DNA of 14,800 nt from Planctomycetota bacterium (GTDB lineage Bacteria > Planctomycetota > Phycisphaerae > WQYP01), in NCBI GenBank assembly GCA_021785155.1, contig JAJYGE010000195.1:1-14800 (forward strand), written 5' to 3'. The position numbers were made by a program, and so were the translations under genes. Positions 1 through 14,800 of this stretch are shown here, in pieces. The notes below the pieces were generated by a model that had not been told where the DNA came from, made no database searches, and was given only the letters and a program-made list of their open reading frames with translations. Within the stretch, counting starts at the first letter, position 1; each line of letters opens with the position of its first letter.

Positions 1-1596
1 CGGATTAATCGCCAGATCCGTCAGAGTGCTTAATCCCAACGTGCCTGTGCCGGTGGTAGCACCGTTGACCGGACTGGTGGCATAATCCACCTTAGCCTGC
101 CGAAGCCCACGCCAGGTACGGCCACCATCCTGCGAACTATAGAAGGTCCCGTTCCAAGCTTTATTGCCGATGGCGTACACATGATCCGCATGGTTGGGCG
201 AAATTACTACGCGCAGCATGTTGTCCGCGGGATCTATCCCTTTCGAGCACTTGGTCCACGTTTTACCCCGGTCGTTTGACCTATGCACGCCGTCATGGCC
301 GAATGTGGCGTATATGATATTCTCATCCGTGGGGGCCACGCTTACGCCGGTGGCGTGCCCCGGCGTTTTAAGTTTCCGCCAGGTTTGGCCGCCATCACCG
401 CTCATCAGTACACCGGTGTTTTCCGTCGCCGCCAGTACCAGCCGGGAATCTTTCGCGGCCACAGTTACTGACTGTACGGCGTCGTTCGCCCCGGCACCGC
501 TTTTGCGGCTGACCTTGCGGCTGTTGCCGTAGGTATACGCGATGCGGTCTCGGCTGAAGTCTTTGGCGACTAATCTGGTTTCTCCGCCCCCGGAACGCTT
601 TACGATGAACGTGAAATCCTTAACCATAATGAAAGAACTTTTATCCAGTCCGTTAACGCACACAAAATCGAACCGGTTTACCTTGGGCCAATCCGGTGTG
701 GCCGGCGCATTGGGGTGGCCTTTGGCGCTTTGGGTATCGAGCACAAAGTCGCCGGGACCAAGTACCACTTTTTCCCAGCGTTGCCTGGCAAATAGATCGG
801 CCAACTTTTCGTTCGTGTTATAGCGCACGCCATCCTGCGTGGTCAGGGACACCACGACCCTGCCGGGGACCATGCTCCCGTTGGCCCGGAAAAAAAATTC
901 CAGGCCTTGGCAATGCTTGGAACTGATGGCAGCGGGTGCGGTCATCGGAAACCAAAATCCACCAAACGCCTGCCCGGTCAGGCCGCCAATCTCAATGTCC
1001 ATGACTCCCACCATCGACGCTTTCCCATCAGGGCTATATACCTGTTTCCAGGTTTGTCCGCCGTCTACGCTTTTGCAGATCGTGCCATTGGTGCTGCCGA
1101 CGTATAACACGTTGCTGTTCACGGGATCAACGGCGATGTTGTCCGTGCTGCGGCCACGTTGGGATGTCAGGTTGTACCCCGCCGGTCCGGTCCGGGGCAG
1201 TAATTTCCAATGCTCACCACCGTCGGTGCTTTTGCACAAGCCCTGTTCCGTGCCGGCGAAAACCGTCTGGCTTTTGGGATCCACCGCCAGGGCATAGACG
1301 GCATATCCGGGCAGACCATTGTTGATCAGCCGCCAATTGCGTCCATGGTCTTCGGATTTATAGATGCCCGCGACGTCCCCGCTCATGTAAATCACCCCCT
1401 CCCGGGTCGCGTCAAATACGGTCGCCCAGTAAAATCCTCCGCCACCCCACCCCGCCGGTTGCCAGTGTGTTGGAATCGGCGGGAGGCCCCCGCTCGCGGG
1501 CTTTCCCACAGCCCGGTGATCAATGGCCTTGTCGGCCAGAATCGCTGCTGCAGCGGCCCCCGAATATTTTAATATCGTGCGCCTGGATAGAACCAT
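1..1596 (-). CDS. Tat-exported BNR/Asp-box beta-propeller protein (partial; possible glycoside hydrolase)
   Basis: This reading frame is open from an ATG at 1596 (complement) to the left edge, giving 532 codons with no stop, so the C-terminus is outside the window. The start is supported by an AGAGGAG ribosome site at 1603-1609. Residues 4-10 read SRRTILK, followed by an Ala-rich hydrophobic stretch: a twin-arginine export signal, so the protein should act outside the cytoplasm. Six Asp-box (S-x-D-x-G-x-x-W) motifs are visible near residues 81, 123, 176, 399, 440 and 488, as in BNR, sortilin and GH74-type propellers. Between the third and fourth boxes (about 200-335) lies a segment without Asp boxes, rich in alternating hydrophobic residues, resembling an inserted beta-sandwich or carbohydrate-binding domain. 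GH74-like xyloglucanase, sialidase-like or non-catalytic propeller are all possible; I cannot assign catalytic residues. A structured repeat lies only 44 bp upstream and may have displaced its promoter. Confidence 0.85.
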   Translation of the reverse strand, partial: MVLSRRTILKYSGAAAAAILADKAIDHRAVGKPASGGLPPIPTHWQPAGWGGGGFYWATVFDATREGVIYMSGDVAGIYKSEDHGRNWRLINNGLPGYAVYALAVDPKSQTVFAGTEQGLCKSTDGGEHWKLLPRTGPAGYNLTSQRGRSTDNIAVDPVNSNVLYVGSTNGTICKSVDGGQTWKQVYSPDGKASMVGVMDIEIGGLTGQAFGGFWFPMTAPAAISSKHCQGLEFFFRANGSMVPGRVVVSLTTQDGVRYNTNEKLADLFARQRWEKVVLGPGDFVLDTQSAKGHPNAPATPDWPKVNRFDFVCVNGLDKSSFIMVKDFTFIVKRSGGGETRLVAKDFSRDRIAYTYGNSRKVSRKSGAGANDAVQSVTVAAKDSRLVLAATENTGVLMSGDGGQTWRKLKTPGHATGVSVAPTDENIIYATFGHDGVHRSNDRGKTWTKCSKGIDPADNMLRVVISPNHADHVYAIGNKAWNGTFYSSQDGGRTWRGLRQAKVDYATSPVNGATTGTGTLGLSTLTDLAINP

Positions 1597-1602
1597 GTCG
1601 TA

Positions 1603-1609
1603 CTCCTCT
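1603..1609 (-). promoter_or_regulatory. Ribosome-binding site of the propeller gene
   Basis: On the complement the sequence reads AGAGGAG, ending 6 bp before the ATG at 1596. It fixes the start that gives the twin-arginine signal at the very N-terminus. Confidence 0.7.
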
Positions 1610-1639
1610 GAATTTCTAACCTGAGAATTTTAAATCATC

Positions 1640-1913
1640 CTAGTGCCCTGTTCCATCCGTAATTACGGGTGGATTGGCCTCAAACCGGCCAGATGCCAGG
1701 AGTCGGCGGCGAAAACCGGGTTCGTAAACCCCTTGAGCCGACGCGACGCCGCAGATGGCCGGTTTCAGGCCAACCCTACGGGCGGGGGCCAAGGGGCCGT
1801 GGGCTTTGTCGCTCGTCGTCAACGTATGCATCCATACGCAATCCTCCTCGCTCCGCGCCCACAACTCCTTGGCCCTCCGTCAACCCGTAATTATGGCTGG
1901 AACAGAGCACTAG
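1640..1913. repeat. 274-bp structured repeat element, long form of the 46-bp palindrome
   Basis: The element begins with CTAGTGCCCTGTTCCAT and ends with GGAACAGAGCACTAG, the same termini as the 46-bp palindromes at 12275 and 14633. Inside are two copies of a 17-bp direct repeat, CCGTAATTACGGGTGGA at 1657-1673 and a copy with two changes at 1885-1901, bracketing a 211-bp core. The core folds into two long hairpins. The first pairs 1674-1696 with 1751-1773 (about 20 of 23), with inner stems 1702-1707/1737-1742 and 1718-1722/1727-1731 closed by a CGTA tetraloop. The second pairs 1786-1794 with 1867-1875, 1799-1804 with 1857-1862, and ends in the stem 1823-1828/1833-1838 with a CATC loop. Open frames across it lack coding character. 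It could be a non-autonomous mobile element or a structured RNA gene; the sequence alone does not decide. Confidence 0.75.
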
Positions 1914-2067
1914 AACGGGAAGGCACCTCGCGCGACTTGATATCAACCGAATTCAGCAGGCCCGCGAATCCGATGTGGAAATCCAGGGCCGATAGGGATG
2001 CGTTTGACAGCGTATTTCGTCCTTGTCGTCGCGCGTCACCGGTTCAGGCCCATGGCCGCGTGGGTAA
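1914..2067. other. Intergenic DNA without recognisable features
   Basis: Between the structured repeat and the hairpin that follows the prepilin-like gene I see no supported reading frame or repeat. No convincing -35/-10 pair for the propeller gene was found here. A weak partial candidate (TTGATA near 1940 on the complement) lacks a matching -10. Confidence 0.4.
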
Positions 2068-2093
2068 CACGGGGTGGTTGTCGCCACCCCGTG
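2068..2093 (-). terminator. Hairpin after the prepilin-like gene
   Basis: CACGGGGTGG (2068-2077) and CCACCCCGTG (2084-2093) form a perfect 10-bp stem with a 6-nt loop, 21 bp past the stop codon at 2115. No U-tract follows on the complement, so it is a possible terminator or 3'-end-stabilising hairpin rather than a textbook intrinsic terminator. Confidence 0.5.
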
Positions 2094-2114
2094 ATGTAAA
2101 CACTACCAGCACTT

Positions 2115-3113
2115 TTAATAGTCGTATGGCCCCAAGGGTGGGTATTGGCCATTGCCCAGTGCCGGGTTGATCACATTGAGTATCCGCAGGCCACTGGTGC
2201 CACTGGTGGAAGATCCTGGGGCCGCGTTCATGGCATTATTATTGGGCGAAATAGTCTCAACGTGTCCATCAAAAAATAAGGCATTCGCCACACCCAGCGA
2301 TGTGGCATTCTGCCCATGGCGATAGCGCAGTCCACATTCCCATCCGGTTCCGGACCCGAAGCTGTCAACCTGGGATTGCCCGCCATTCATACCTTCCGGT
2401 GGGATCATGTAGTTGAGATCATTGTAGTCGCTTTGCACCGGCGACCAGGAACTCCAGGTCTGAGCCCATGAGAAATTTGCCCATGCCCGCCCCGAATTCG
2501 CGTAGGAGTTTTGTGAAGCATCTCCAACGGCCAGGCTAAGCGTTGGAGTCTGGACGTTCGAGAGCTTGAAATTTGTAGTATTGATTTTTCCGCCAAGCAA
2601 CCCGTCGTAGAAAAAATAATTGGGGTTGCAGGCGTAGGTGGTGGCGAAATCAGGGGTTCCCGAAAAAGAAGGCTCCGGCCCCCACGAGACCGGGCAACGG
2701 AAAATTCCCTGGAATTGTGCTGCCCAAGTGTAGGCTTGGCCGCCGGCGGCATTATATTGGCTGGGATCGCAGAACTGTATTTCAGGATGGCCCGAGTTGA
2801 AACTATACAGTTCGGTTGCCCATCCGACCACGAATTGCGGCGTGTAGGGCATGCTTGGCCAGAGCGTTGAGTTCGTCTCGACATCAAACGGGATGGCATC
2901 CTCGTAGGTGCTGGAGTACTCATAGAGCATCTGGCCGACGGATCGCAAATTAGAGGCGCATGAAATCGTGACCGCCATCTGTCTGGCTCTGGCCAAGGCC
3001 GGCAGCAACAGCGCGATCAACAAGGCAATGATGGATATCACCACGAGCAGCTCAATGAGCGTAAAACCGCGCCTGGATTTACGAGCCGATCGCAGGAAAC
3101 AGTTGGAAAACAT
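2115..3113 (-). CDS. Prepilin-like protein with type IV pilin methylation signal (332 aa)
   Basis: The start at 3113 has an AAGGAG ribosome site at 3120-3125 and puts the class III signal where it belongs: a basic 16-residue leader ending RRG, then F17-T-L-I-E with Glu at mature position +5 and a hydrophobic helix to about residue 40. A prepilin peptidase would cleave after Gly16. The body is a large, Tyr/Asn/Ser-rich extracellular domain. Near the C-terminus [10 protein letters not shown]...LFFDGHVE resembles the H-X9-DG signature of PVC-group prepilin-like proteins, but 15 residues rather than 9 separate His and Asp, as if 6 were inserted. Such proteins are abundant in planctomycetes; their role (pseudopilus, surface substrate binding) is mostly unproven. 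The gene has its own promoter with an upstream regulator-type direct repeat. The frame stays open far upstream, but a longer start would bury the signal. Confidence 0.9.
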
Positions 3114-3441
3114 AAATGACTCCTTTCGCTCCATATTATTGGGGACGTTTGAATTGACCGTTGACCCGATGGACGACGGTTTGTCCCGATACATCGGGAT
3201 GGATGTAACGATGCTTGTATTGTTACTCATATTACGCTTTCTTATAACGGAAACCTGTTTTGCAAATCCAATTTTTTCCAACCACAACGGCTGGCATAAT
3301 TGACGCTGATCAGCAGCCCTGAAAAACACTAAATCGGTTGCCCTGACCAACTCCCGGAAAAACCTTTTCCGCCCAAAAGCACCTTTTTTACAATCAGAAT
3401 GGCGAATTTGTTCCGGGCCTTCGCCCTTCCATTCCATAACT
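3114..3441 (-). other. Long 5' leader of the prepilin-like gene
   Basis: The predicted transcript carries about 330 nt before the start codon. It includes a hairpin TCCCGA-TACA-TCGGGA at roughly 3186-3201 and the AAGGAG ribosome site. I recognise no known riboswitch. It stays open in the downstream frame, which I regard as incidental. Confidence 0.4.
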
Positions 3442-3447
3442 GTCTCA

Positions 3448-3475
3448 AGTATAGTCGCCTTGGAGGTCGATTCAA
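3448..3475 (-). promoter_or_regulatory. Sigma70-type promoter of the prepilin-like gene
   Basis: On the complement TTGAAT (3470-3475) and TATACT (3448-3453) are separated by 16 bp. Transcription would start near 3441, giving a leader of about 330 nt. The regulator box lies immediately upstream of the -35 element, as expected for an activated promoter. Confidence 0.6.
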
Positions 3476-3483
3476 TAATGGAT

Positions 3484-3515
3484 AGCGCAAAAATATTTAT
3501 CATTAGCGCAAAAAT
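3484..3515. promoter_or_regulatory. Direct-repeat operator, copy A (candidate XylR/AraC-type site)
   Basis: AGCGCAAAAAT occurs at 3484-3494 and again at 3505-3515, exactly 21 bp apart (two helical turns) in direct orientation. Near-identical pairs occur at 7959-7990 and 9174-9205. The proximal half ends 8 bp from the -35 element. Direct repeats with 21-bp periodicity next to -35 are the arrangement known for AraC at araI1-I2. Confidence 0.65.
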
Positions 3516-3530
3516 ACGCCCGGCGCTTTT

Positions 3531-3648
3531 ATCGGGTTAAGCCGCAGGTGGCAATACCGGTTTCGCCACGCGACGGCAGCGCAGGGTTGCCATGCACTGA
3601 TGAAAACCCTGAATTTTTCTGTGATCTTTACGCAAAAAAGCGGGCCGG
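3531..3648. repeat. Relic copy of the region between operator B and the PEP-CTERM terminator
   Basis: This stretch matches 8005-8127 closely, for example in AGCGCAGGGTTGCCATG and CCTGAATTTTTCTGTGATC, apart from a few substitutions and a gap of about 5 bp. It ends with the first arm of the PEP-CTERM gene terminator (GCGGGCCGGGAA at 3640); the second arm is missing. It suggests a PEP-CTERM gene once lay to the right of the prepilin-like gene and was lost, with a breakpoint near the hairpin centre. Confidence 0.65.
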
Positions 3649-3706
3649 GAAGGGCCTGTGACCGATTCTGCAACGCGGCGGGACCGCCAGCATTTAGGAG
3701 TTGTGG

Positions 3707-3742
3707 GTTAGAAGTTAGAAGTTAGAAGTTAGGAGTTAGAAG
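3707..3742. repeat. Short tandem repeat, unit GTTAGAA
   Basis: About five consecutive 7-bp units occur here, with one AGGAGTTAGAAG variant, and a shorter copy at 3885-3903. There is no coding frame. It resembles a simple-sequence array and could vary in length by slippage. Confidence 0.7.
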
Positions 3743-3755
3743 ACCTTGCGAATTT

Positions 3756-3862
3756 CAAGTTGCTCAAGATGCTCAAGTTCGGGGGCAAGGTGCCCAAGTT
3801 GGGCAAGTTGATGAGAGCGTTGATTTTAGCGGGTTTGGTTCAAGTTGCCCTAGATGCCCAAG
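3756..3862. repeat. Degenerate CAAGTTGCYCAAGATG repeats
   Basis: A 22-bp unit at 3756-3777 recurs at 3841-3862 with three differences, and weaker relatives (AAGGTGCCCAAGTTGGGCAAG) lie between them. Unit boundaries are loose and no open frame follows the period. The block is bracketed by the GTTAGAA arrays at 3707 and 3885, so the whole 3707-3903 stretch looks like one compound non-coding repeat region. Confidence 0.5.
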
Positions 3863-3903
3863 ATGTTTTAACGGGGGGGCATTCAGGAGTTAGAAGTTAG
3901 AAG

Positions 3904-4129
3904 GCAGTTTGGGCGCGGGCGTCGATTTTTTACCGGGTACATAGCGAACTCCATGGCCATACGGAACCATTGATGCGGGCATGTTATTTAATTGTCAAAG
4001 AACAGGGTTCAGCGGGTCTGAACTATTCATCGGGAAAGCTATAGGGTGGCAGTAAGCGGGATAATGAGCAACAGCGCTAAAACGTCAAGGCTTTGGCCAC
4101 GAAAGACCTGGCAGAATTTGTCACAGGCC
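3904..4129. other. Gene-free DNA between relic repeats
   Basis: No reading frame with a ribosome site, family resemblance or clear promoter is visible here. It lies between the short-repeat block and a copy of the upstream region of the neighbouring hydrolase gene, and probably is remnant DNA of a deleted gene. Confidence 0.4.
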
Positions 4130-4236
4130 CTGCTGAAAGTCTCTGATTTTCGCGCATTTTACATAGGCCTCCGGGATACATAACGTGTTGCGCAATGACC
4201 GCGACAGGTTCTACCGCGACCTGCTATGGCGGGCAG
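4130..4236. repeat. 107-bp direct repeat, left copy (downstream of the TIM-barrel/FGE gene)
   Basis: This aligns without gaps to 6574-6680 with about nine substitutions. Both copies share CTCTGATTTTCGCGCA, an imperfect inverted repeat GAAARTC-TCT-GATTTTC, and a CAGGT...ACCTG stem. A neighbouring hairpin here is GCGGGC-AGAT-GCCCGC (4229-4244). The matching copy lies upstream of the gene start at 6508, so the two copies flank that gene in the same orientation. Confidence 0.75.
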
Positions 4237-4327
4237 ATGCCCGCACCACAACATTACGCGGCGCACAACAGAAATTGGATGGCTGTGGTATTGGGGTTTT
4301 CATCAGGTCGGCGTTACGGGGGCGACG

Positions 4328-6508
4328 TTAAGCGTCTACAACGCAACGGAACCCGATCGTGGCGGCGCGGTCTCTTCCGGGGTACATCAGCAACAACCTT
4401 CCGTGGTCCGTCAGCCTGGCCGAGTTTGGGAAATACCACTGCGAACCTTGGGGGTGGTAATAACTGCCGCCGCGGATGATAGCGGAGCGGGTGTGTTCGT
4501 CAATATATTCATCGGTCCACTGCCATATATTTCCGACCATATCCATGACGCCAAACGGGCTGACGCCGTTTGGAAATGCGTCGACGTTGCTGGGAGGGCG
4601 CATCTCCCGTCCCTTATGCGGCGGTGGAACCGCACCCGCATTCCACTGCTTGCCCCAGGGGTAAAGCCGGCCATCTGTGCCCTGGGCCGCGTACTGCCAT
4701 TCCCACTCATGCGGAAGTCGTTTACCGGCCCAGTGTGCGTAGGCGCGGGCGTCTTCCAGGGAAATCCAGGTCACGGGTCTATTTTCCCAGCCTGTCGGAA
4801 AATGTCCTTTTTGCCAATCCCGGAGGAATGCGTGATCCTCCTTCGGATGATAACCTGACGCCACCAGAAATGTTTTGAACTGCCCATTGGTCACCGGATA
4901 ACGATCTATAAAGAAGGGCTTGATAACAATGCGGTGGCGATGATGTCGTCGCGGAGCATCCTCCCATGGATATTGTACATCCACGCCGACACCACGGCCC
5001 TCGATTTCAATTCCAGATACGTTGAAATCAAAGCCTCCGCCCGGAATTTTCACCATGCCCGCCGGCAACACCTTCGCCGGGACGGTGGCCGCGATTTTCA
5101 CCTGATATTGTGGGAGGAATTTCCATTCGTCCGAAAAATCCACCAGCCGCCGTTTTGCCAATGCTTTCATGCCATTGAGGAAGGACCGCAGCGAACGATT
5201 TGCAGCAATCCGCGTTGCCAATACCGCGCCGTAACCGTTGGCTTCCATGTCAAAACTCAGTGCGGCGGAGGTGACACCGTTGATTACACGGATGGCCGGT
5301 ATTAATTCGACACCGTGCCAGAGGTCAAAATACCGCATCAACGGGCGATGTGGTATTTGGATTACCGCTCCCGAAAAGTCGTTGGAGGTCCGGTTAATGA
5401 GCGTCCAAAGCGTTTGTCCGGCCCGGGAAAATTCGCTTGCGAAGACACCATGCCGCAACGTGGGCGAATGCGGTATCCAATCAGGACTGATTAAGAGATG
5501 AGAAAAGGCCCGAAAAATGTCAGCGATGCGACGCAGCGCCTCGGCGTCGCGTGGCGTCAGGCCATTCCAGATTCCAAAGACATTTTCCCAACTCTCGAAG
5601 CCCACGCCGTTGAAGAAGGCGTGTTGCAAATCATCTGTGTGATTGCGCGCCCAACGGTTGCAGATATTGACCATGTGGCGCGTTTCAAGCCATTTATATT
5701 TGCTGACCGCCGGGATAAAACCATAACTCCAGTAACCCCAGGTCATATTGTTCCACTGCAATTCGGCCAAATTGCCCACGCCGAGTTCCGGCTCAAACGC
5801 CAGAATGCGCCCGGTCTGATCCGAGGCTTCGCGATATTCCCTGGGAATGCCGTCCATGGTGTCGCCGTTTACGCCGTCCGCCTCCACCGCCTTGAGTTCC
5901 CCGGCAATGGCGGTCCAAAGCGGCTGGCCTTCATCGCGTGTGCCGTTGTCCCAGGGGTTGAGGGGAAAAAGCACTTTGACGCCGCGCCGGTGGAAATCCG
6001 CCACCATCTTTTGCACTCCGGCAATGCCACCGGGAAGGGCTTTGAGCATTTCAAATTGATTACGATTATCAACGCCCAGATTCGGATAGGTGTGCCAGAT
6101 CAGAACGCTGTCAATCCCGCCGTAGCGCCTTTCCAGGTCATCAAGATAACGATCCACGGTGTATTGGCCATCCGTGGGATTGTAGAAATATCTGTCTTCG
6201 ACCATCATCTGGGGTTGAATGAAACTACCTTGCGTCCATTTGAGTTCAGGGACGCCATATTGGGCACCACTGTAACGGATCTTTTCCAACTGCGCGGATC
6301 TCCATCGCTTCATTGTCGCAAGCCACGTCGAAAATGCTCCGGGTGTGGCTGGTCCAAGGATGGTCTCATGCGTTACATCGAGAGCCTTGGCCCGTGCTGC
6401 TCGCCTGGACGAACGGGCCCCGGTTGAGCGTATCGCGCCTGCTACGGTTGCCGTCGCCGCGATGCAAGTCTTAAGTAGATTTCGCCGCGCAAAAAATTTA
6501 GCCATCAT
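4328..6508 (-). CDS. Tat-exported TIM-barrel glycosidase-like protein with C-terminal FGE/SUMF1-fold domain (726 aa)
   Basis: I place the start at the ATG-ATG pair 6503-6508, 5 bp after GGGG. Residues 8-13 (RRNLLK) plus an Ala-rich stretch form a twin-arginine signal. Residues about 100-345 look like a TIM-barrel hydrolase: YGGIDSVLIWHTYPN, RRGVKVLFPLNPWDNG, ADGVNGDTMDG and AFEPELG sit where strand ends and acidic catalytic residues would be (D216 and E239 are candidates only). A beta-sandwich segment (about 355-435) follows. Residues about 484-726 are an FGE-sulfatase/SUMF1 domain (MVKIPGG, FFIDRYPVTNGQF, GKRLPHEWEWQYAA, VGNIWQWTDEY, IIRGGSYY, IGFRC). The cysteine pair used by true formylglycine-generating enzymes after GGSY is absent (HPQGSQWYFPNS instead), so it probably does not oxidise sulfatase cysteines and may bind or modify something else. 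Probable role: extracellular glycan breakdown. The substrate is unknown. Confidence 0.85.
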   Translation of the reverse strand: MMAKFFARRNLLKTCIAATATVAGAIRSTGARSSRRAARAKALDVTHETILGPATPGAFSTWLATMKRWRSAQLEKIRYSGAQYGVPELKWTQGSFIQPQMMVEDRYFYNPTDGQYTVDRYLDDLERRYGGIDSVLIWHTYPNLGVDNRNQFEMLKALPGGIAGVQKMVADFHRRGVKVLFPLNPWDNGTRDEGQPLWTAIAGELKAVEADGVNGDTMDGIPREYREASDQTGRILAFEPELGVGNLAELQWNNMTWGYWSYGFIPAVSKYKWLETRHMVNICNRWARNHTDDLQHAFFNGVGFESWENVFGIWNGLTPRDAEALRRIADIFRAFSHLLISPDWIPHSPTLRHGVFASEFSRAGQTLWTLINRTSNDFSGAVIQIPHRPLMRYFDLWHGVELIPAIRVINGVTSAALSFDMEANGYGAVLATRIAANRSLRSFLNGMKALAKRRLVDFSDEWKFLPQYQVKIAATVPAKVLPAGMVKIPGGGFDFNVSGIEIEGRGVGVDVQYPWEDAPRRHHRHRIVIKPFFIDRYPVTNGQFKTFLVASGYHPKEDHAFLRDWQKGHFPTGWENRPVTWISLEDARAYAHWAGKRLPHEWEWQYAAQGTDGRLYPWGKQWNAGAVPPPHKGREMRPPSNVDAFPNGVSPFGVMDMVGNIWQWTDEYIDEHTRSAIIRGGSYYHPQGSQWYFPNSARLTDHGRLLLMYPGRDRAATIGFRCVVDA

Positions 6509-6573
6509 TAATTCCCCGGAAACCTTTCTCGGTAACTCAGACATACAGGCGCACCATGCAACCGTCCGGCGGC

Positions 6574-6680
6574 CTGCTGAAAATCTCTGATTTTCGCGCA
6601 ATTTCCATAGGCCTCCGGGGTACATAACGTGTTGCACAATGACAGCGACAGGTTCCACCGCGACCTGCCATGGTGGGCAG
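6574..6680. repeat. 107-bp direct repeat, right copy (upstream of the TIM-barrel/FGE gene)
   Basis: This is the partner of 4130-4236, lying 65 bp upstream of the gene start, so on the complement it probably contains promoter or leader sequence. It includes the perfect inverted repeat GAAAATC-TCT-GATTTTC (operator-like or hairpin) and ATTGCGCG on the complement, which resembles only a half-site of the AGCGCAAAAAT boxes. The hairpin beside it has changed to GGGCAGG-ATG-CCTGTCC, keeping a stem despite substitutions. Confidence 0.7.
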
Positions 6681-6900
6681 GATGCCTGTCCCGCCAACAT
6701 CGCTGCGGGGTAACCGTTCACTGCTTTTCGGCCTTCCCAGCTCCGTATCCGTTCAGGGCGGTGCTGCTGCCGTACGTTCGTGGCTCGGACTACCGCTCCG
6801 TGTGGTGGGCAAGCAAGAAACGTCGTGCGTGAACGGCCCCCGAATTTCATCAGCTCACGCCAAGGGTGCCCGCGCCCAAATGGCTGCACGCGGTTTGACC
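6681..6900. other. Gene-free upstream region of the TIM-barrel/FGE gene
   Basis: A frame in phase with the hydrolase stays open through here up to 6889, but it lacks a ribosome site and would put the Tat signal deep inside the protein. No clear -35/-10 pair is visible in this GC-rich stretch. Confidence 0.4.
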
Positions 6901-6937
6901 AAAAAGCGGGCCGGGAAAGCTTTCCTTCCCGGCCCGC
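6901..6937 (-). terminator. Intrinsic terminator of PEP-CTERM gene 1
   Basis: GCGGGCCGGGAA pairs with TTCCCGGCCCGC (6906-6937), forming a 12-bp GC-rich stem. On the complement it is followed by five Ts (6905-6901). It lies 35 bp past the stop codon. Confidence 0.9.
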
Positions 6938-6972
6938 AGGACGAACGTGTTGACCTGACTCCAGTCGCGGAT

Positions 6973-7791
6973 TTAAGTGAATTTCCGCTTGCGGCCCAAC
7001 AGCAGCAACCCCAGCCCGCCCGCCGCCACCAGAGCCAGCGAAGCTGGTTCGGGAACGGGGGCACTGACTAACTGCAGTCCATTGACATTCCCCGTGTTGT
7101 GGGTGGTTATGGACGGGGTGCCGCTCGTTGGATAGGGTACTATTGTGATGGTTCCGGTGGCGCTGGCGGTGACGTCAAAAATCACGTAGTTGGTATTAAG
7201 CGCGAACGCCCCGGGAGCGACTTCGCTTGCTGACGTGTAAGCATTGCTGCCGGCGGCCGGGGTCGCGGTGCCGGCTGTGAATTTGAACAAGGTTTTAGCC
7301 CCGTACCCCGCGCTACTGCCATAGAGGTAGAGTTCGTAGTTGCCATTGTCGGTCAGCCCTGTAAGCTCGATGTTGTTGTTTACATAGCCCGCCACGCTGG
7401 CGATATAGGAGTCCAGAAGGTTATTTGCGGGGCTTGTTTTTTTGTAAGCGTTGAACCACCCTTGGTACCCGAAGGTAATGCCGACGCCTGTGGCCGTGTT
7501 GGTTGAGTCCACGAGACCATTCACCGTGACGGGGACTACCTGGCCGCTTCCGTTTACATCACCATCGACCGTAAGCACGTTCCACGTCGGCGACGTCAGA
7601 CTGTCGCCCGTGTATGCGCCCTGCTGGTGTTGAAAGTTGCCGCTATTCGCGTTCCCGTTATTCCAGAATTCAACATTGACGACCGACGCGCTGACTGCGC
7701 CCGTCCCGGCCAGCCCGGCCACTGCCACCGCCGCGAGTGCCGCGGCCCCCAGAGAAGAACCACCACGATTTGGGAAGATCTTGGAAAACAT
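6973..7791 (-). CDS. PEP-CTERM surface/exported protein 1 (272 aa)
   Basis: The start at 7791 has AGGAG at 7798-7802 and gives a Sec signal: MFSKIFPNRGG, an Ala/Gly/Val-rich core, and a cleavage-type GAVSA near residue 35. The last 27 residues are a canonical PEP-CTERM sorting tail: VPEP, a hydrophobic Gly/Leu helix and the basic end GRKRKFT. In known systems such tails are processed by an exosortase during export to the surface or matrix; no exosortase gene is in this window. The middle (about 36-245) is Asn/Thr/Ser/Gly-rich, predicted to be beta-structured, with no family I can name. Leader DNA, signal peptide, tail and terminator are nearly identical to the gene at 8186-9025, while the middles do not align. 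The upstream operator and promoter (7922-7990) suggest control by the neighbouring regulator. Confidence 0.9.
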   Translation of the reverse strand: MFSKIFPNRGGSSLGAAALAAVAVAGLAGTGAVSASVVNVEFWNNGNANSGNFQHQQGAYTGDSLTSPTWNVLTVDGDVNGSGQVVPVTVNGLVDSTNTATGVGITFGYQGWFNAYKKTSPANNLLDSYIASVAGYVNNNIELTGLTDNGNYELYLYGSSAGYGAKTLFKFTAGTATPAAGSNAYTSASEVAPGAFALNTNYVIFDVTASATGTITIVPYPTSGTPSITTHNTGNVNGLQLVSAPVPEPASLALVAAGGLGLLLLGRKRKFT

Positions 7792-7869
7792 AAAATACTC
7801 CTGCTCCCTCAAGGAAGCCACATGACTTATCCCGCAGAAAAGACCGCTGCGGGAGACCGGTTCCACCGC
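7792..7869 (-). promoter_or_regulatory. Conserved 5' leader of PEP-CTERM gene 1 with two hairpins
   Basis: The leader matches that of gene 2 (9026-9103) with only two changes. A perfect 7-bp stem CCCGCAG/CTGCGGG (7831-7837 and 7847-7853) and a smaller one CTTCC-TTGA-GGGAG on the complement (7804-7817) sit just upstream of AGGAG. The second hairpin is 1 nt from the ribosome site, so it could affect translation or mRNA stability. Confidence 0.5.
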
Positions 7870-7921
7870 CCGCCTGCCGAAGGGCAGACAACATGCGGAG
7901 AAAATCTAATTCACTGAATTC

Positions 7922-7950
7922 ATTATTGACCCGTTGAAATTAGAATGCCA
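7922..7950 (-). promoter_or_regulatory. Promoter of PEP-CTERM gene 1
   Basis: On the complement TGGCAT (7945-7950) and AATAAT (7922-7927) are separated by 17 bp. The weak -35 next to the direct-repeat box at 7959 fits an activator-dependent promoter. Confidence 0.5.
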
Positions 7951-7958
7951 TAATGGAC

Positions 7959-7990
7959 AGCGCAAAAATATTTATCATTAGCGCACAAAT
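7959..7990. promoter_or_regulatory. Direct-repeat operator, copy B
   Basis: AGCGCAAAAAT at 7959-7969 and AGCGCACAAAT at 7980-7990 are 21 bp apart, with the intervening bases as in copy A. It lies 8 bp beyond the -35 element of PEP-CTERM gene 1. Confidence 0.65.
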
Positions 7991-8004
7991 CATCCCATTT
8001 CTAT

Positions 8005-8118
8005 ATCGGGTTAAGCCGTATGTGGCGATGCCGGATTCGCAACGCCACGCCACGGCAGCGCAGGGTTGCCATGAGATGATGAAAACCCTGAATTTTTCTG
8101 TGATCTTTACGCAAAAAA
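8005..8118. other. Spacer between operator B and the PEP-CTERM gene 2 terminator
   Basis: No coding frame is supported. The sequence is conserved with 3531-3640 downstream of operator A, so operator, spacer and terminator were copied together as a unit. Confidence 0.5.
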
Positions 8119-8150
8119 GCGGGCCGGAAAAGCTTTCCTTCCCGGCCCGC
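8113..8150 (-). terminator. Intrinsic terminator of PEP-CTERM gene 2
   Basis: The stem arms GCGGGCCGG and CCGGCCCGC (8119-8150), with further pairing inside, are followed on the complement by six Ts (8118-8113). It is the same hairpin as at 6906 with one base change, and lies 35 bp past the stop at 8186. Confidence 0.9.
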
Positions 8151-8185
8151 AGGACGAACGTGTTGACCTGACCCCAGTCGCGGAT

Positions 8186-9025
8186 TTAAGTGAATTTCCG
8201 CTTACGGCCCAACAGCAGCAACCCCAGCCCGCCCGCCGCCACCAGAGCCAGCGAAGCTGGTTCGGGAACGGAGCTGGGAAGGGACGTCAAGCTTAGGTCC
8301 TTGATGGACCCTGTGGCATTGTCGTATTGGTACACTGCGATATTCGATGTACTGCTCAGACCGGTCACTGTGACGGGAGTACTGCTCCAACTGCCGACGC
8401 TATCGGTGAAGGTAAGCATGCTATTGCCGGTAGCGAGGTTACTTGCCGTGGCAAGTGTTACGGTCAACGTTCCCGTCCTATTGTAGGGTTTATATTGGGC
8501 ACCCCCGTTCTGATTAAAGCCGGCGGTACGCGTACCCACCCACCCGGAACCACTAAGCTGCACAACGCCCGGACCAATACCAATGCCCATGTATACGCCG
8601 TTGGTGTTGGTAACGTTAAAGACTCCCGAGAGCACATAGGTTGTACTCGGCGTCAGAGTAACAGGCAGGCTCTCAGATGCCCCATAGTTATAGCCACCAG
8701 ATTGTACAACCGGGGCCGAGAGGCTCACTTGCGTACCGTCGGTCGAAAAATCCTGCGGATACGAATATTTCCCGGCGGTGGAGGGCGTCCAAGTGTCGCT
8801 GCCCGGATTGGGGCCGTTGTCAACGGCAAGTCCTGGTGTCGGCGTGCTGTTGAGGCCAAGGCCGGAAAGCGCCTCGGAGGTGCTGGCCGTGGAAGCCGTG
8901 AAGGCCTGATAAATCACCGACGCGTTTACGGCTCCCGCACCAGCCAGCCCGGCCACTGCCGCCGCCGCGAGTGCCGCGGCCGCCAGAGAAGAACCACTAC
9001 GATTTGGGAAGATCCTGGAAAACAT
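8186..9025 (-). CDS. PEP-CTERM surface/exported protein 2 (279 aa)
   Basis: The start at 9025 uses the same AGGAG context as PEP-CTERM gene 1. The signal peptide (MFSRIFPNRSG, Ala-rich core, GAVNA) and the 27-residue tail starting VPEPAS match gene 1 closely. The middle (about 36-250) is unrelated in sequence. It is Ser/Thr/Gly-rich and reads like a jelly-roll domain with alternating strands (SLPVTLTPSTTYVLSGVFNV, NGVYMGIGIGPG, GTLTVTLATAS, SMLTFTDSVGSW). That pattern is reminiscent of beta-sandwich carbohydrate-binding modules, but I cannot assign a family. It is likely anchored or released at the cell surface by an exosortase encoded elsewhere. It is transcribed away from the regulator gene with operator C between them. 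Confidence 0.9.
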   Translation of the reverse strand: MFSRIFPNRSGSSLAAAALAAAAVAGLAGAGAVNASVIYQAFTASTASTSEALSGLGLNSTPTPGLAVDNGPNPGSDTWTPSTAGKYSYPQDFSTDGTQVSLSAPVVQSGGYNYGASESLPVTLTPSTTYVLSGVFNVTNTNGVYMGIGIGPGVVQLSGSGWVGTRTAGFNQNGGAQYKPYNRTGTLTVTLATASNLATGNSMLTFTDSVGSWSSTPVTVTGLSSTSNIAVYQYDNATGSIKDLSLTSLPSSVPEPASLALVAAGGLGLLLLGRKRKFT

Positions 9026-9103
9026 AAAATACTCCTGCTCCCTCAAGGAAGCCACATGACTTATCCCGCAGAAAAGACCGCTGCGGGAGGCCGGTTCCAT
9101 CGC
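9026..9103 (-). promoter_or_regulatory. Conserved 5' leader of PEP-CTERM gene 2 with two hairpins
   Basis: The same two stems occur as in gene 1: CCCGCAG/CTGCGGG at 9065-9071 and 9081-9087, and the small hairpin at 9038-9051 next to AGGAG. The few changes from the gene 1 leader fall outside the stems. Confidence 0.5.
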
Positions 9104-9136
9104 GACATGCGAAAGACTGATGAACCACCTCACCTT

Positions 9137-9165
9137 ATTTTGACGCGAAAAAACATGGAATACAA
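9137..9165 (-). promoter_or_regulatory. Promoter of PEP-CTERM gene 2
   Basis: On the complement TTGTAT (9160-9165) and CAAAAT (9137-9142) are separated by 17 bp. The position relative to the adjacent box is the same as at the other two promoters. Confidence 0.5.
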
Positions 9166-9166
9166 T
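9140..9166 (+). promoter_or_regulatory. Possible divergent promoter of the regulator gene
   Basis: TTGACG (9140-9145) and TACAAT (9161-9166) are 15 bp apart, which is shorter than ideal. Transcription would start at the edge of operator C, so binding there could block it. This is a weak call. Confidence 0.3.
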
Positions 9167-9173
9167 GATGGAT

Positions 9174-9205
9174 AGCGCAAAAATATTTACCATTAGCGCA
9201 AAAGT
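9174..9205. promoter_or_regulatory. Direct-repeat operator, copy C (between PEP-CTERM gene 2 and the regulator)
   Basis: AGCGCAAAAAT at 9174-9184 and AGCGCAAAAGT at 9195-9205 are 21 bp apart. It lies 8 bp beyond the -35 of PEP-CTERM gene 2 and ends 26 bp before the regulator's ATG, a position suited to activating one gene and autoregulating the other. Confidence 0.65.
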
Positions 9206-9231
9206 GGGATTCGGTTTCCTCTGCGATTACA

Positions 9232-10500
9232 ATGCCCGACATGAGAATCAGAACTCATGGAACCGCTTCCGCCGCCAAATCTCCGACCGGCTTTCGCAAG
9301 ACGCGCCGCACCAGGCCGTTGCGGGTGGCTTATTTCTCCCGCGAGACCAGCATGTACAACCAAAACGCCGTTGTTGAATTTGCGCGGTGTGCCGAAGAAT
9401 TCGGTAATTGGCACACGCTCGTAGCCACATTGGGCGAAGTGGAGCCGGGAGATATTCTGGCGGGGCGCGTGGACGGGGCGATTATGGGACATTGGGATGA
9501 ACAGGAAACCATTCTGGCACTTCGGCAGGCGAAAATCCCCGTGGTTGTCACTTCGCATCTGCAGGAAAATATTCCCTTTATGCAGGTGGTTCCCGATGAT
9601 TACGCTTTCGGTGTGCAGGCGGCTGAACATCTGGCATCCAAGGGATTTCGCACATTTGCCTATTACGGCATGGCGCAAGCCACCACGTTTTCATGGGATC
9701 GGTTACGCCGAAACGGTTTTACCGAGCGTCTGAAACAGATGAACCATTCCGTGAATGTATGTGATAACGCCATACCGATATACGATCATGATATACCGGA
9801 CTGGTGGCGGTTTCAAAACAAGCAACAGCAAAAAGACCTGCGCCACTGGCTGAAAAGCCTGCCCAAACCGGTGGGCCTGTTTGCCTGCATGGATCGTCTG
9901 GCCTACGATGTGGCTCGATTAGCCAGGGAAGAGCACATCATGGTGCCCAAAGATATGGCGGTCTGCGGGGTGGATAACAACCCGTGGGTGTGCATGCTTT
10001 GTTCCCCGCGGCTGACCAGCATTCCGCACAACATCCGACTGATGGTGCGCCAGGCGGCCGAAACGCTCAATGCCGTCATGCGTAGTAAGCCGGCCCCAAA
10101 AGCCCCCATACTTATTGCGCCTTTACCGGTGGTGCAGCGCGAATCCACCGAGGTGGCGGCCTTTGAGGATCAGGACGTTGCCGAAGCGTTTCAATTCATC
10201 CGTGAGCACGCCCATGAGCCGATTTGTGTCCAGGACGTAGTGGGCAAAGCGATGGTTTCGCGCCGCGGATTGGAAATGCGTTTCAAAACCGCCACCAGCT
10301 CCACCCTGCAGGATGAAATCTGGCGGGCGCATGTGGACCGCGCCAGGAAGCTCATCACTGAATCCGATCAGAAAATGTGGAAGATCGCCGAGGATTCCGG
10401 CTTTCGCAGTGAAACGGTATTCAATGTGGTATTTAAGCGCATCACGGGAATGACCCCGTCAGAATATAGACGCGATAATAGCGCGCAGCTACCTTTTTGA
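9232..10500 (+). CDS. XylR-type transcriptional regulator (periplasmic-binding-protein-like sensor plus AraC HTH, 422 aa)
   Basis: Residues about 28-300 form a LacI/periplasmic-binding-like ligand domain: RVAYFSRETSMYNQNAVVEF at the first strand, GAIMGHW, IPVVVTSHLQ, VVPDDYAFGVQAAEHLASKG, and the LacI-like VPKDMAVCGVDNNPWVCML followed by RLTSIPHNIRLMVRQAAE. Residues about 315-420 carry a two-helix-turn-helix AraC domain ending in the typical WKIAEDSGFRSETVFNVVFK...GMTPSEYRRD. This is the layout and length of E. coli XylR (xylose activator), which binds direct repeats at -35. The ligand here is probably a sugar but cannot be named. The start at 9232, or the ATG at 9241, lacks a clear Shine-Dalgarno; starting later would remove the first strand. 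It is divergent from the PEP-CTERM genes with operator C between. Confidence 0.92.
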   Translation: MPDMRIRTHGTASAAKSPTGFRKTRRTRPLRVAYFSRETSMYNQNAVVEFARCAEEFGNWHTLVATLGEVEPGDILAGRVDGAIMGHWDEQETILALRQAKIPVVVTSHLQENIPFMQVVPDDYAFGVQAAEHLASKGFRTFAYYGMAQATTFSWDRLRRNGFTERLKQMNHSVNVCDNAIPIYDHDIPDWWRFQNKQQQKDLRHWLKSLPKPVGLFACMDRLAYDVARLAREEHIMVPKDMAVCGVDNNPWVCMLCSPRLTSIPHNIRLMVRQAAETLNAVMRSKPAPKAPILIAPLPVVQRESTEVAAFEDQDVAEAFQFIREHAHEPICVQDVVGKAMVSRRGLEMRFKTATSSTLQDEIWRAHVDRARKLITESDQKMWKIAEDSGFRSETVFNVVFKRITGMTPSEYRRDNSAQLPF

Positions 10501-10969
10501 CGCTGATTTCAGACGTAACCGTTTAGCCCTTGCGCACAGGCCGTGAAATAATAGAGGAACCGTCGCTGGGTTTTGAATATGGAAACAGTCGCGAATGCCA
10601 ATAACTTAAGCAGAGAAAGCAATGGAATCAACGGCATTTGATTTTCTCTCCACGTGCGATCATCGCCTCAATGATCCACGTTACCGTGTCAATAAAGCTG
10701 ATGCGGTCTTTGCACCTTGGCCAGCAATTCGGGCAATTGGTTATTGACGCGCTGCATCGCCTGGATCATAGGGGTCATCCGTGATCTCCTGTTAAAGAGC
10801 CATGAACATCACCCTACCTGCGTTAATCGAATATTCATAATCGCAAGAATATATGTTCATACGTATACTATAATGATTTATGACTTACGTTCATGGCCCT
10901 TGCGGATGATACCTGTTTTCGGGGATAACCGAATGTCTGAAAAACCGGGCAGGGGCGGAAGTTGCGGGG
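10501..10969. other. Intergenic region between regulator and polyprenyl synthase genes
   Basis: Apart from the small reading frame at 10689-10778, I see no gene. An AT-rich stretch at about 10820-10885 (ATATATGTTCATACGTATACTATAATG) contains TATACT and TATAAT-like sequences and could hold a promoter, but no gene starts clearly downstream on either strand. No clear terminator follows the regulator. Confidence 0.4.
10689..10778 (-). CDS. Possible 29-residue small protein
   Basis: An ATG at 10778 is preceded by AGGAG with 7-bp spacing and opens a 29-codon frame (MTPMIQAMQRVNNQLPELLA and so on, ending HQLY, stop at 10689). The peptide is amphipathic and helix-prone. An AT-rich possible promoter lies just upstream on the complement. 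It may be a real small protein, a remnant N-terminus of a decayed gene, or chance. I recognise no family. Confidence 0.3.
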   Translation of the reverse strand: MTPMIQAMQRVNNQLPELLAKVQRPHQLY

Positions 10970-11959
10970 TTACGACTCGCGGGCGGTGACAAAGCGGGCC
11001 ATGTCGATGAGAATCCGGCGGATTTCTGATTCCGGCAAATCATGGATGGCGGCGATGGCCTGATCCACAAGCTGTTGCGCGCGGTTGCGCGCGTACCGCA
11101 TTGAAGGGCTGGGGATTAACAATTGCCGGGCATTATCAATGCGATCCGGAGCATCGGATTCGAGGAGACTTATCAATAGCTGCTGGTGGGTCGGGGCCGC
11201 GGTAGCGAGAAAATGAATCATCGGCAACGTAAGTTTGCCTTTTTCAATATCGGTGCCCAGAGATTTTCCGACGGTTTTCTGCTGGCCGACAATGTCCAAA
11301 AGGTCATCGACAATTTGAAATGCCATACCCACGTCTCGGCCATAATTGCCCAGCGCCGCCACCGTTGCCGCATCCGCATCGGACGCCCAGGCACCGAGGC
11401 GGCAGGATGTTTCAATGAGGCTGGCGGTTTTACGATAGATAATGTCAAAATAAGTATTTTCAGTCAAAGCCCAGTTGCCGCGATTAAAATTCTGCGTCAG
11501 TTCACCTTCGCAGACGATATTGGTGGTGCGACCGATGGCACGCGACGCAATCTGACTATCCAGTGAACTGCAAAGATGGTAGGCGTGGCTGATTAACAAA
11601 TCCCCCAGCAATACCGCCATCTCATTGCCGTGCAGATGATTAATCGTGGCCCCTCGCCGACGAATTTCGGCATTGTCCAATACATCGTCATGCACCAGCG
11701 TGGCAACATGCACCATTTCCACCACCGTGGCGATGGTGACGTGGGTTGACCCCAGCGATTGGGAATTGTTGCGCGCCGCCAGGCCTGAAAGAAAAACCAG
11801 CACCGGGCGGAGCATTTTGCCGCGGAAGCGTTCAACATGATGGGCAAGTTTCTGGACATGATCCAGATCGCTGGCCAGTTCGCGCGCAAAGAGATCATTG
11901 ACTTGCGCGAGGTAAGGCTCAATCGCCTGCAAGGTAATGGGGCCGGCCAGTGTGACCAT
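10970..11959 (-). CDS. Long-chain trans-polyprenyl diphosphate synthase (329 aa)
   Basis: This is an all-alpha trans-isoprenyl diphosphate synthase that extends allylic diphosphates with IPP, here probably for the quinone side chain. Landmarks: GKMLRP (47-52), first Asp-rich motif D91-D92-V-L-D95 followed by RRG, GDLL (119-122), KT (177-178), second Asp-rich motif D218-D-L-L-D222, and GTDIEKGK (235-242). Ala86 and Thr87, five and four residues before the first Asp motif, are small, which in this family goes with long (C30-C50) products rather than FPP or GGPP. I chose ATG 11959 with GGAG 9 bp upstream. A TTG at 12001, preceded by GGGAGG, would add 14 residues. It looks like a housekeeping gene unrelated to the surface-protein cluster. 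Confidence 0.92.
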   Translation of the reverse strand: MVTLAGPITLQAIEPYLAQVNDLFARELASDLDHVQKLAHHVERFRGKMLRPVLVFLSGLAARNNSQSLGSTHVTIATVVEMVHVATLVHDDVLDNAEIRRRGATINHLHGNEMAVLLGDLLISHAYHLCSSLDSQIASRAIGRTTNIVCEGELTQNFNRGNWALTENTYFDIIYRKTASLIETSCRLGAWASDADAATVAALGNYGRDVGMAFQIVDDLLDIVGQQKTVGKSLGTDIEKGKLTLPMIHFLATAAPTHQQLLISLLESDAPDRIDNARQLLIPSPSMRYARNRAQQLVDQAIAAIHDLPESEIRRILIDMARFVTARES

Positions 11960-12274
11960 AAAAGCACGCTCCACGAACGGAGAGGGAAAAACCAGGCCCA
12001 AAAGCCTCCCAAGTCGGCACTTCCGTTCAATTCTTTTTGAAACTATAGAAAATTCTGACGGGAATGTCCAGTGAATGACATTGTTAACCTGACGTGCGGG
12101 CTATGTTAACCTCGCGGTATTTTTTTTCAACATGGCAACGGTCAACGATGGCCACGACGGCGTGGCAATAAATCCGGGCGTGGGTCCGAGGTGCGAGTTT
12201 CCAGGACGAACCTTCTCTAAGCGCCGGCATTTATGCCGTTGATTTCGCTGTTCGCCGGGAAAAATGGCCACACT
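11960..12274. other. Upstream region of the polyprenyl synthase gene
   Basis: This contains a direct repeat TGTTAACCT at 12082-12090 and 12104-12112 (22 bp apart), which could be an operator or part of a promoter, and a run of eight Ts near 12120. An ATG at about 12131 on the plus strand opens 36 codons but lacks a ribosome site and family resemblance. Nothing else is recognisable. Confidence 0.4.
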
Positions 12275-12320
12275 CTAGTGCCCTGTTCCATCCGTAATTA
12301 CGGGTGGAACAGGGCACTAG
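12275..12320. repeat. 46-bp palindromic repeat, copy downstream of the antiporter gene
   Basis: The element starts CTAGTGCCCTGTTCCAT and ends GGAACAGGGCACTAG; its two 23-bp arms pair perfectly except for one T/G position. It is the exact reverse complement (bar its last base) of the copy at 14633-14678, and equals the termini of the 274-bp element at 1640. It lies 36 bp past the antiporter stop and could also act as a terminator hairpin, although no T-run follows. Confidence 0.85.
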
Positions 12321-12355
12321 CCACGGTGGTCGCGTGACGGCTCCCTTTCCGGTGG

Positions 12356-14506: not shown

Positions 14507-14632
14507 GAAAGGCTTCTGCTCCAGCACCCACACATAGTAACCAAGGTATCATGCCATGCCGCGGGTGAATCGACCAGCATGCAAGGCTGTCAAAATAATA
14601 TTTGCATCACCCGCGACGCCCCTTGATAATAC

Positions 14633-14678
14633 CTAGTGCCCTGTTCCACCCGTAATTACGGATGGAACAGGGCACTAA
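14633..14678. repeat. 46-bp palindromic repeat, copy upstream of the antiporter gene
   Basis: This is the reverse-complement orientation of the copy at 12275: the single stem mismatch is swapped (CACCCG on the left, CGGATGG on the right). The final base differs (CTAA instead of CTAG). It lies 127 bp upstream of the antiporter start. Confidence 0.85.
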
Positions 14679-14800
14679 GTAGGAACGCAAAATGAATCGT
14701 TCATTGTATCGACGGCATAAATTGCGAATGCCATGGTATTGGCCACAATCGTGATAGTGTAAATCAATATGCGTTTCTACTTAGTTTCCGGCGGGCTGCT

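Follow-up and report, generated by a model that had tools for sequence, protein, structure and literature searches.

At araBAD, the operator araI1-I2 is a direct repeat with a period of 21 bp, and its promoter-proximal half-site lies over the -35 region. A paired box of similar layout was found in three copies (A, B and C) in a stretch of 14,800 nucleotides from a Planctomycetota bacterium (GenBank assembly GCA_021785155.1, contig JAJYGE010000195.1, positions 1 to 14,800), hereafter called the window. The copies stand in front of a pseudopilin-like gene and two PEP-CTERM genes, and copy C also adjoins the gene of a XylR-type regulator (Table 1). Like araI1-I2, the box is a 21-bp direct repeat with the near half-site apparently over -35; it differs in half-site sequence, and the regulator has a LacI/GalR-like sensor where AraC has its arm domain. 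E. coli XylR shares the domain order of the window regulator and is its best structure match. In the E. coli xylA-xylF region the best repeat among lags 15-30 was also found at lag 21 (12/16; the next, at lag 25, reached 11). However, these operators have another half-site sequence, and the neighbours in the window and its relatives are surface and pilin genes, in the relatives also polysaccharidase genes.

XylRA of marine Vibrio is a LacI-AraC chimera and a positive regulator of a xylan cluster, acting through two AT-rich direct repeats (PMC12125979). The window regulator resembles XylRA in being such a chimera with a probable direct-repeat operator, whereas XylRA belongs to a gammaproteobacterial sugar cluster, and the available parts of that paper mention no pilin or PEP-CTERM targets (PMC12125979). 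For planctomycetes, polysaccharide uptake by pili acting as a "fishing rod" has been hypothesized; gold-labelled dextran was found at pili-like fibres, and such fibres or pilin-like proteins were linked to capture (PMC12078418, PMC5394234). These studies concern other species and, in the parts available to us, name neither a pilus regulator nor pilin genes; in the present case the link is a shared operator. A literature search by title and abstract yielded no description of such an operator or regulon. Our analysis indicates that the box probably serves as operator for a class-II activator of the XylR type which co-controls the pseudopilin gene, the PEP-CTERM genes and, in relatives, polysaccharide-degrading genes; binding, activation and a sugar ligand are deduced here from sequence comparison.

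The search pattern for the paired box in the window was AGCGCAAAAAT-N10-AGCGCAAAAAT. It matched three times, compared to a mean of 0.00 in 200 dinucleotide shuffles (none in any). Half-sites within 1 mismatch were just the six of copies A-C, where 0.60 were expected. Read in gene direction, the copies correspond to TTTTGCGCT-N12-TTTTGCGCT, with B one base off, and CCAT follows at most 3 bases on. All three belong to a 46-nt repeat family, with identities of 91% or more to the reference copy. Thus, the 21-bp period reported in an earlier note on this DNA was recovered in all three boxes (3484, 7959 and 9174), and the 46-nt family agrees with its description of nearly identical intervening bases. 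Copy C indeed ends 26 bp short of the regulator gene's first ATG. The claim that the flanking DNA differs was correct for copy C, which is without the promoter-distal flank common to A and B, but not for A and B themselves. On their promoter-distal side the latter have two stretches in common, 3530-3584 / 8004-8058 with 82% identity and 3564-3651 / 8043-8130 with 94% identity. Because of these flanks, the likeness of A and B reflects in part their descent from one duplicated segment. If extended to all three copies, this would make the boxes mere leftovers of a recent gene duplication with no regulatory meaning, and the 5' and 3' ends of PEP-CTERM genes B and C are indeed 93% and 98% identical. 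Such an origin is hardly credible as the whole explanation: copy C and the relatives keep the box while the flanks diverge, and in other genomes the box precedes different genes. This cross-genome conservation largely refutes the duplication-only reading.

The deduced regulator contains a Peripla_BP_3 domain at residues 131-306 (4.7e-31) followed by HTH_18, a helix-turn-helix (HTH) domain, at 340-414 (4.6e-15). The closest solved structure is E. coli XylR (4fe4/4fe7), which matches residues 81-418 of 422 and hence both domains (E 2.6e-40), and the protein is 29.3% identical to a record annotated xylR. Consequently, the XylR-type design postulated before was confirmed. The real start of the regulator is perhaps the second ATG at 9241. 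The candidate -10 hexamer TACAAT ends 7 nt ahead of this ATG (9228-9243), and 6-7 nt ahead of it in five relatives; the regulator mRNA may be leaderless.

Box scans were made in relatives of the window's genome. A regulator profile search revealed 12 loci in Planctomycetota metagenome-assembled genomes with 42-66% identity, and 11 of them carry a box of 21-bp period, with at most 5 mismatches in 22 positions, directly upstream of the regulator. At the twelfth, L010, whose regulator match is without the first 119 residues, no upstream box was observed. In six aligned regulator promoters (counts from the four more divergent rows), 29/39 columns of the box were invariant compared to 44/167 columns of the flank. 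The gene divergent from the regulator encodes a pseudopilin in L001, L003, L005 and L006 and a PEP-CTERM protein in the window, so the box was kept while the neighbouring gene changed. Allowing 3 mismatches, 28 matches were obtained in 7/8 genomes and none in the control, although two of them (L013 and L014) appeared chance-like by eye. Among 101 genomes comprising G001 and relatives, the box matched in 15 and the control in 2, and a relaxed pair gave 53 matches versus 4 control matches in 16 genomes hand-picked among the nearest ones. The strict box is a feature of the clade; a phylum-wide strict box was rejected because visual inspection attributed most of its matches to chance or to coding DNA, G069 with its 21-bp repeat being one example. 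The scan of relatives, which had been suggested before, therefore located boxes before relatives of this regulator as well as before pseudopilin and PEP-CTERM genes.

The promoter geometry was investigated with boxes that differ from the paired nonamer at no more than one position, of which the fetched DNA contained 27 unique ones. One box without flank, two coding-like ones (L187 and L206) and two near-duplicates were dropped, which left 22. A -10-like hexamer was detected 28-34 bp past the last T of TTTTGCGCT at 18 of these 22 non-redundant sites (16/19 when the window was left aside). With a stricter redundancy cut it was present at 30-33 bp in 17/21 sites, the typical count per offset being 0.8. 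The mean -10 score at 30-33 bp was reached by 0/500 random rolls, while the opposite direction gave 163/500 and no such peak. Both the -10 cut-off of 4.5 and the pair cut-off of 13 of 16 applied below were set after looking at the data. The four sites without a -10 above the cut are window copy C and the three boxes for which no target gene was assigned in that direction. By arithmetic from the -10 distances, the box would span about -72 to -43, with its variable tail over the -35 position, which mostly lacks a good consensus in the relatives. The fixed distance to the -10, together with this missing -35 consensus, suggests an activator layout with the promoter-near half-site over -35.

Each box had been described as lying near a plausible target promoter; this was true for the -10, found at 30-31 bp in the window (weak for C), and failed for the -35 in most relatives. 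The proposed araI1-I2-like operator near -35 fits this geometry, with -10-like hexamers at a fixed distance in one direction. The boxes do not appear to be scattered without relation to promoters or to this regulator family, as the fixed -10 distance and the position beside the regulator in 11/12 loci show. The neighbouring XylR-type regulator might nevertheless bind the box as a repressor, with the sugar releasing the block. LacI-like domains often occur in repressors, and in the paralogues L007, L008, L009, L011 and L012 a -35-like TTGACG with TAAATT 17 bp on is found inside the box, so that a bound regulator would block the promoter of its own gene. In contrast, the box on the target side does not cover the -10 but precedes it at a constant distance, and the -35 is mostly devoid of consensus. 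We regard the repressor as rather unlikely; activation of the targets and repression of the regulator itself may both hold.

For each of the 22 sites, target genes were assigned in TTTTGCGCT direction, skipping spurious-looking short open reading frames (ORFs). This assignment gave five pseudopilins, six PEP-CTERM proteins, three GH31 enzymes, two large propeller proteins (sortilin/BNR and Reg_prop), a candidate small RNA at three sites and three sites without assignment. Pfam supports all five pseudopilins, the three GH31 enzymes and five of the six PEP-CTERM targets; for the sixth, L119, Pfam gave nothing and the call was made by the script motif alone. Weaker boxes with 2 mismatches in 18 precede GH39 (L107), a pseudopilin (L122) and GH26 with CBM35 (L108, L109, L110 and L117). 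The predicted regulon of pilin-like and PEP-CTERM genes is thus supported by boxes before both types at independent places in the relatives, and glycoside hydrolases (GH) are an added target class in relatives outside that prediction. An orthologue of the E. coli xylose regulator XylR would be expected beside xylose catabolic or transport genes, but a scan of 8 ORFs of the 14.8-kb window revealed none. The boxes L124:5773 and L009:7590 are followed on their other side by a small gene coding for 181-203 amino acids (MAISxIREK). The boxes L007:1327 and L009:7590 each follow a long ORF at its 3' end.

A wider sample of the regulator family comprised at least 99 distinct regulators, 93 of them with 300 bp of upstream DNA; 79 scored under 300 bits and are termed distant. 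All counts given for this sample are among the matches listed. Exact repeats upstream of the 93 regulators peaked at lag 21, with 13 carrying an 8-base run compared to a mean of 1.8 per lag. The top octamer upstream of the 79 distant regulators was TGCGCAAA, present in 15/79 where 1.9 were expected. Pairs of GCGCAAA occurred 13 times at spacing 21 and 4 times each at spacings 20 and 22; the remaining spacings showed a mean of 0.69 and a maximum of 3, and control regions 0/75. A prepilin motif was divergently encoded within 1.8 kb upstream of 33/99 regulators and on the same strand of none; for 89 of the 99, the upstream DNA available comprised 1 kb or more. With 27-130 prepilin matches per genome (9 genomes), the chance expectation for a divergent prepilin is about 1-2%. 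The window regulator falls outside this group of 33, as 6 kb separate it from its prepilin gene. The helix SRRxLE was tried as a predictor of the box in distant regulators and discarded as weak (12/40 with versus 7/39 without).

Many boxes lie far from any regulator gene in the examined stretches, and G010, whose genome is possibly incomplete, carries a window-type box without a close regulator. Both would be expected if another factor, such as a different AraC-type protein, bound the box and the XylR-type adjacency were incidental. We consider this a distinctly improbable explanation, since 13/79 distant XylR-type regulators carry 21-bp pairs upstream, as opposed to 0/75 controls. The box of G010 nonetheless weighs against an operator of the XylR-type activator, and so do several other observations. 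Among the matches listed, 60/79 distant and 3/14 close regulators are without a box of spacing 20-22 above the cut. The strict phylum-wide scan matched 25/392 genomes with controls in 10, many of the matches being coding or chance by eye. In L116, a GH31-CBM6 gene lies opposite to the usual target side of the box. Window copy C has just the weak -10 CAAAAT, the boxes L124:5773, L007:1327 and L009:7590 have neither a -10 nor an assigned target, and copies A and B go back in part to one duplication.

The first recognition helix SRRSLEMRFK is common to L001, L002, L003 and L006 and to the paralogues L007-L009, L011 and L012; the window regulator has SRRGLEMRFK. The anchor GCGCT of the box is also common to window-type relatives and paralogues. 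In contrast, the second HTH differs between the two groups, and the second part of the promoter-near half-site is CCATT in the window type versus TACGYAGTGG in the paralogues. The fixed anchor may be read by the first HTH (HTH1) and the variable part by the second (HTH2).

For the activator, the following mechanism is proposed. The regulator would combine a sugar-sensing LacI/GalR-like domain with a fused AraC-type DNA-binding domain. Two such DNA-binding domains would sit head-to-tail on half-sites 21 bp, i.e. two helix turns, apart, each recognizing TTTTGCGCT as the fixed anchor plus a second, variable part. The promoter-near half-site would cover the -35 region, so that transcription in TTTTGCGCT direction would require the bound regulator. 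The pseudopilin gene and the two PEP-CTERM genes of the window would then be switched on together. In relatives, like boxes precede genes for GH31, GH39 and GH26 as well as further pilin or PEP-CTERM genes. The gene divergent from the regulator would use the same box, which predicts autoregulation.

A more general proposal is put forward tentatively, as we incline slightly against it. In this clade, and more loosely in related Planctomycetota, XylR-type sensors might commonly pair divergently with a pseudopilin as a module and run substrate-specific regulons. One operator code (TTTTGCGCT/HTH1, variable/HTH2) would co-activate a pilin-like filament protein, PEP-CTERM surface proteins, hydrolases of the hemicellulose type and a structured small RNA, as a pilin-based counterpart of the SusCD polysaccharide utilisation loci. 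The box regulon fits and sharpens the hypothesis of pili-based uptake as outlined in the accessible parts of its sources (PMC12078418, PMC5394234). An operator common to particular pseudopilins, PEP-CTERM proteins and the enzymes GH31, GH26 and GH39, under a sugar-sensor-like regulator, points to candidate genes and to possible inducing conditions; with this link, the notion that pili catch polysaccharides would become testable. Moreover, the box provides a motif for reading regulons from genomes.

Table 1. Positions of the boxes, genes and candidate signals (window coordinates unless a locus is named).
Feature	Position	Strand	Basis or remark
Operator copy A, candidate (pseudopilin gene)	3484-3515	-	paired-box search, 0 mismatches
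Operator copy B, candidate (PEP-CTERM gene B)	7959-7990	-	paired-box search, 1 mismatch
Operator copy C, candidate (between PEP-CTERM gene C and divergent regulator)	9174-9205	-	paired-box search, 1 mismatch
XylR-type regulator	9232-10500	+	LacI/GalR-like sugar-binding domain and C-terminal AraC HTH
Candidate -10 TACAAT of regulator	9228-9233	+	in all five relatives aligned with it
Candidate -10 TATACT, 30 bp after box A	3448-3453	-	
Candidate -10 AATAAT, 31 bp after box B	7922-7927	-	
Weak candidate -10 CAAAAT, 31 bp after box C	9137-9142	-	score 3.8, cut 4.5
Pseudopilin-like gene	2115-3113	-	prepilin motif; mechanical ORF 2115-3503
PEP-CTERM gene B	6973-7791	-	ORF listed 6973-7866; probable start at MFSKIF
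PEP-CTERM gene C	8186-9025	-	ORF listed 8186-9193; probable start at MFSRIF
Candidate small RNA	L006:12090-12215; also L001, L002, L003, L004	-	about 120 nt, ends in T-run

The start of the pseudopilin gene is most plausibly at 3113, as suggested by its prepilin leader and by a stretch resembling a ribosome site. The N-terminus of the protein matches pilins by sequence, and its AlphaFold2 model (mean pLDDT, the predicted local distance difference test, 79.9) has a long N-terminal helix at residues 19-69; a fold search of this model versus solved structures gave no PDB match with E <= 0.001. The C-terminal PEP-CTERM motif scored 22.7 and 22.8 bits in the two PEP-CTERM proteins (cut-off 20.7). 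A sequence search with the product of gene C retrieved three matches, one being the protein itself and the others covering 15-17%. Between 6973 and 9103 the two genes are 93% identical from promoter to signal and 98% from C-terminus to terminator with dissimilar middles, as if the middle had been swapped.

In five genomes a second box is located 2.3-2.5 kb from the first and is followed by a -10-like hexamer and a block of about 120 nt, the candidate small RNA. In L001-L004 this block is 95-100% identical to the L006 copy, while the surrounding DNA diverges. Its predicted fold is a closed multi-branched structure of -53.4 kcal/mol (z -2.18; 8/200 shuffles were as good). All 235/235 pair cells are standard; 7 pairs vary on one side and none on both, so that the five related sequences are no proof of the structure. 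The candidate was present in 5/150 genomes searched. The window contains just one 27-base stretch of it, with up to 3 mismatches, and an Rfam search of 7 sources gave no family at gathering score.

A plus-strand repeat with a terminator-like hairpin and T-run lies beside boxes A and B (3528-3624 and 8002-8103). It might be a second small RNA, but its folds are weak (z -0.48 and -2.33); it had no match in 16 genomes by a search whose empty answer shows nothing. A 45-nt near-palindrome, CTAGTGCCCTGTTCCA..TGGAACAGGGCACTA, occurs at 1640-1684, 1868-1912, 12275-12319 and 14633-14677 with copies 73-100% identical, and resembles a REP-like (repetitive extragenic palindromic) or MITE-like (miniature inverted-repeat transposable) element. 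Finally, a 108-nt direct repeat of 92% identity (4129-4236 / 6573-6680) flanks a gene with an FGE-sulfatase domain.

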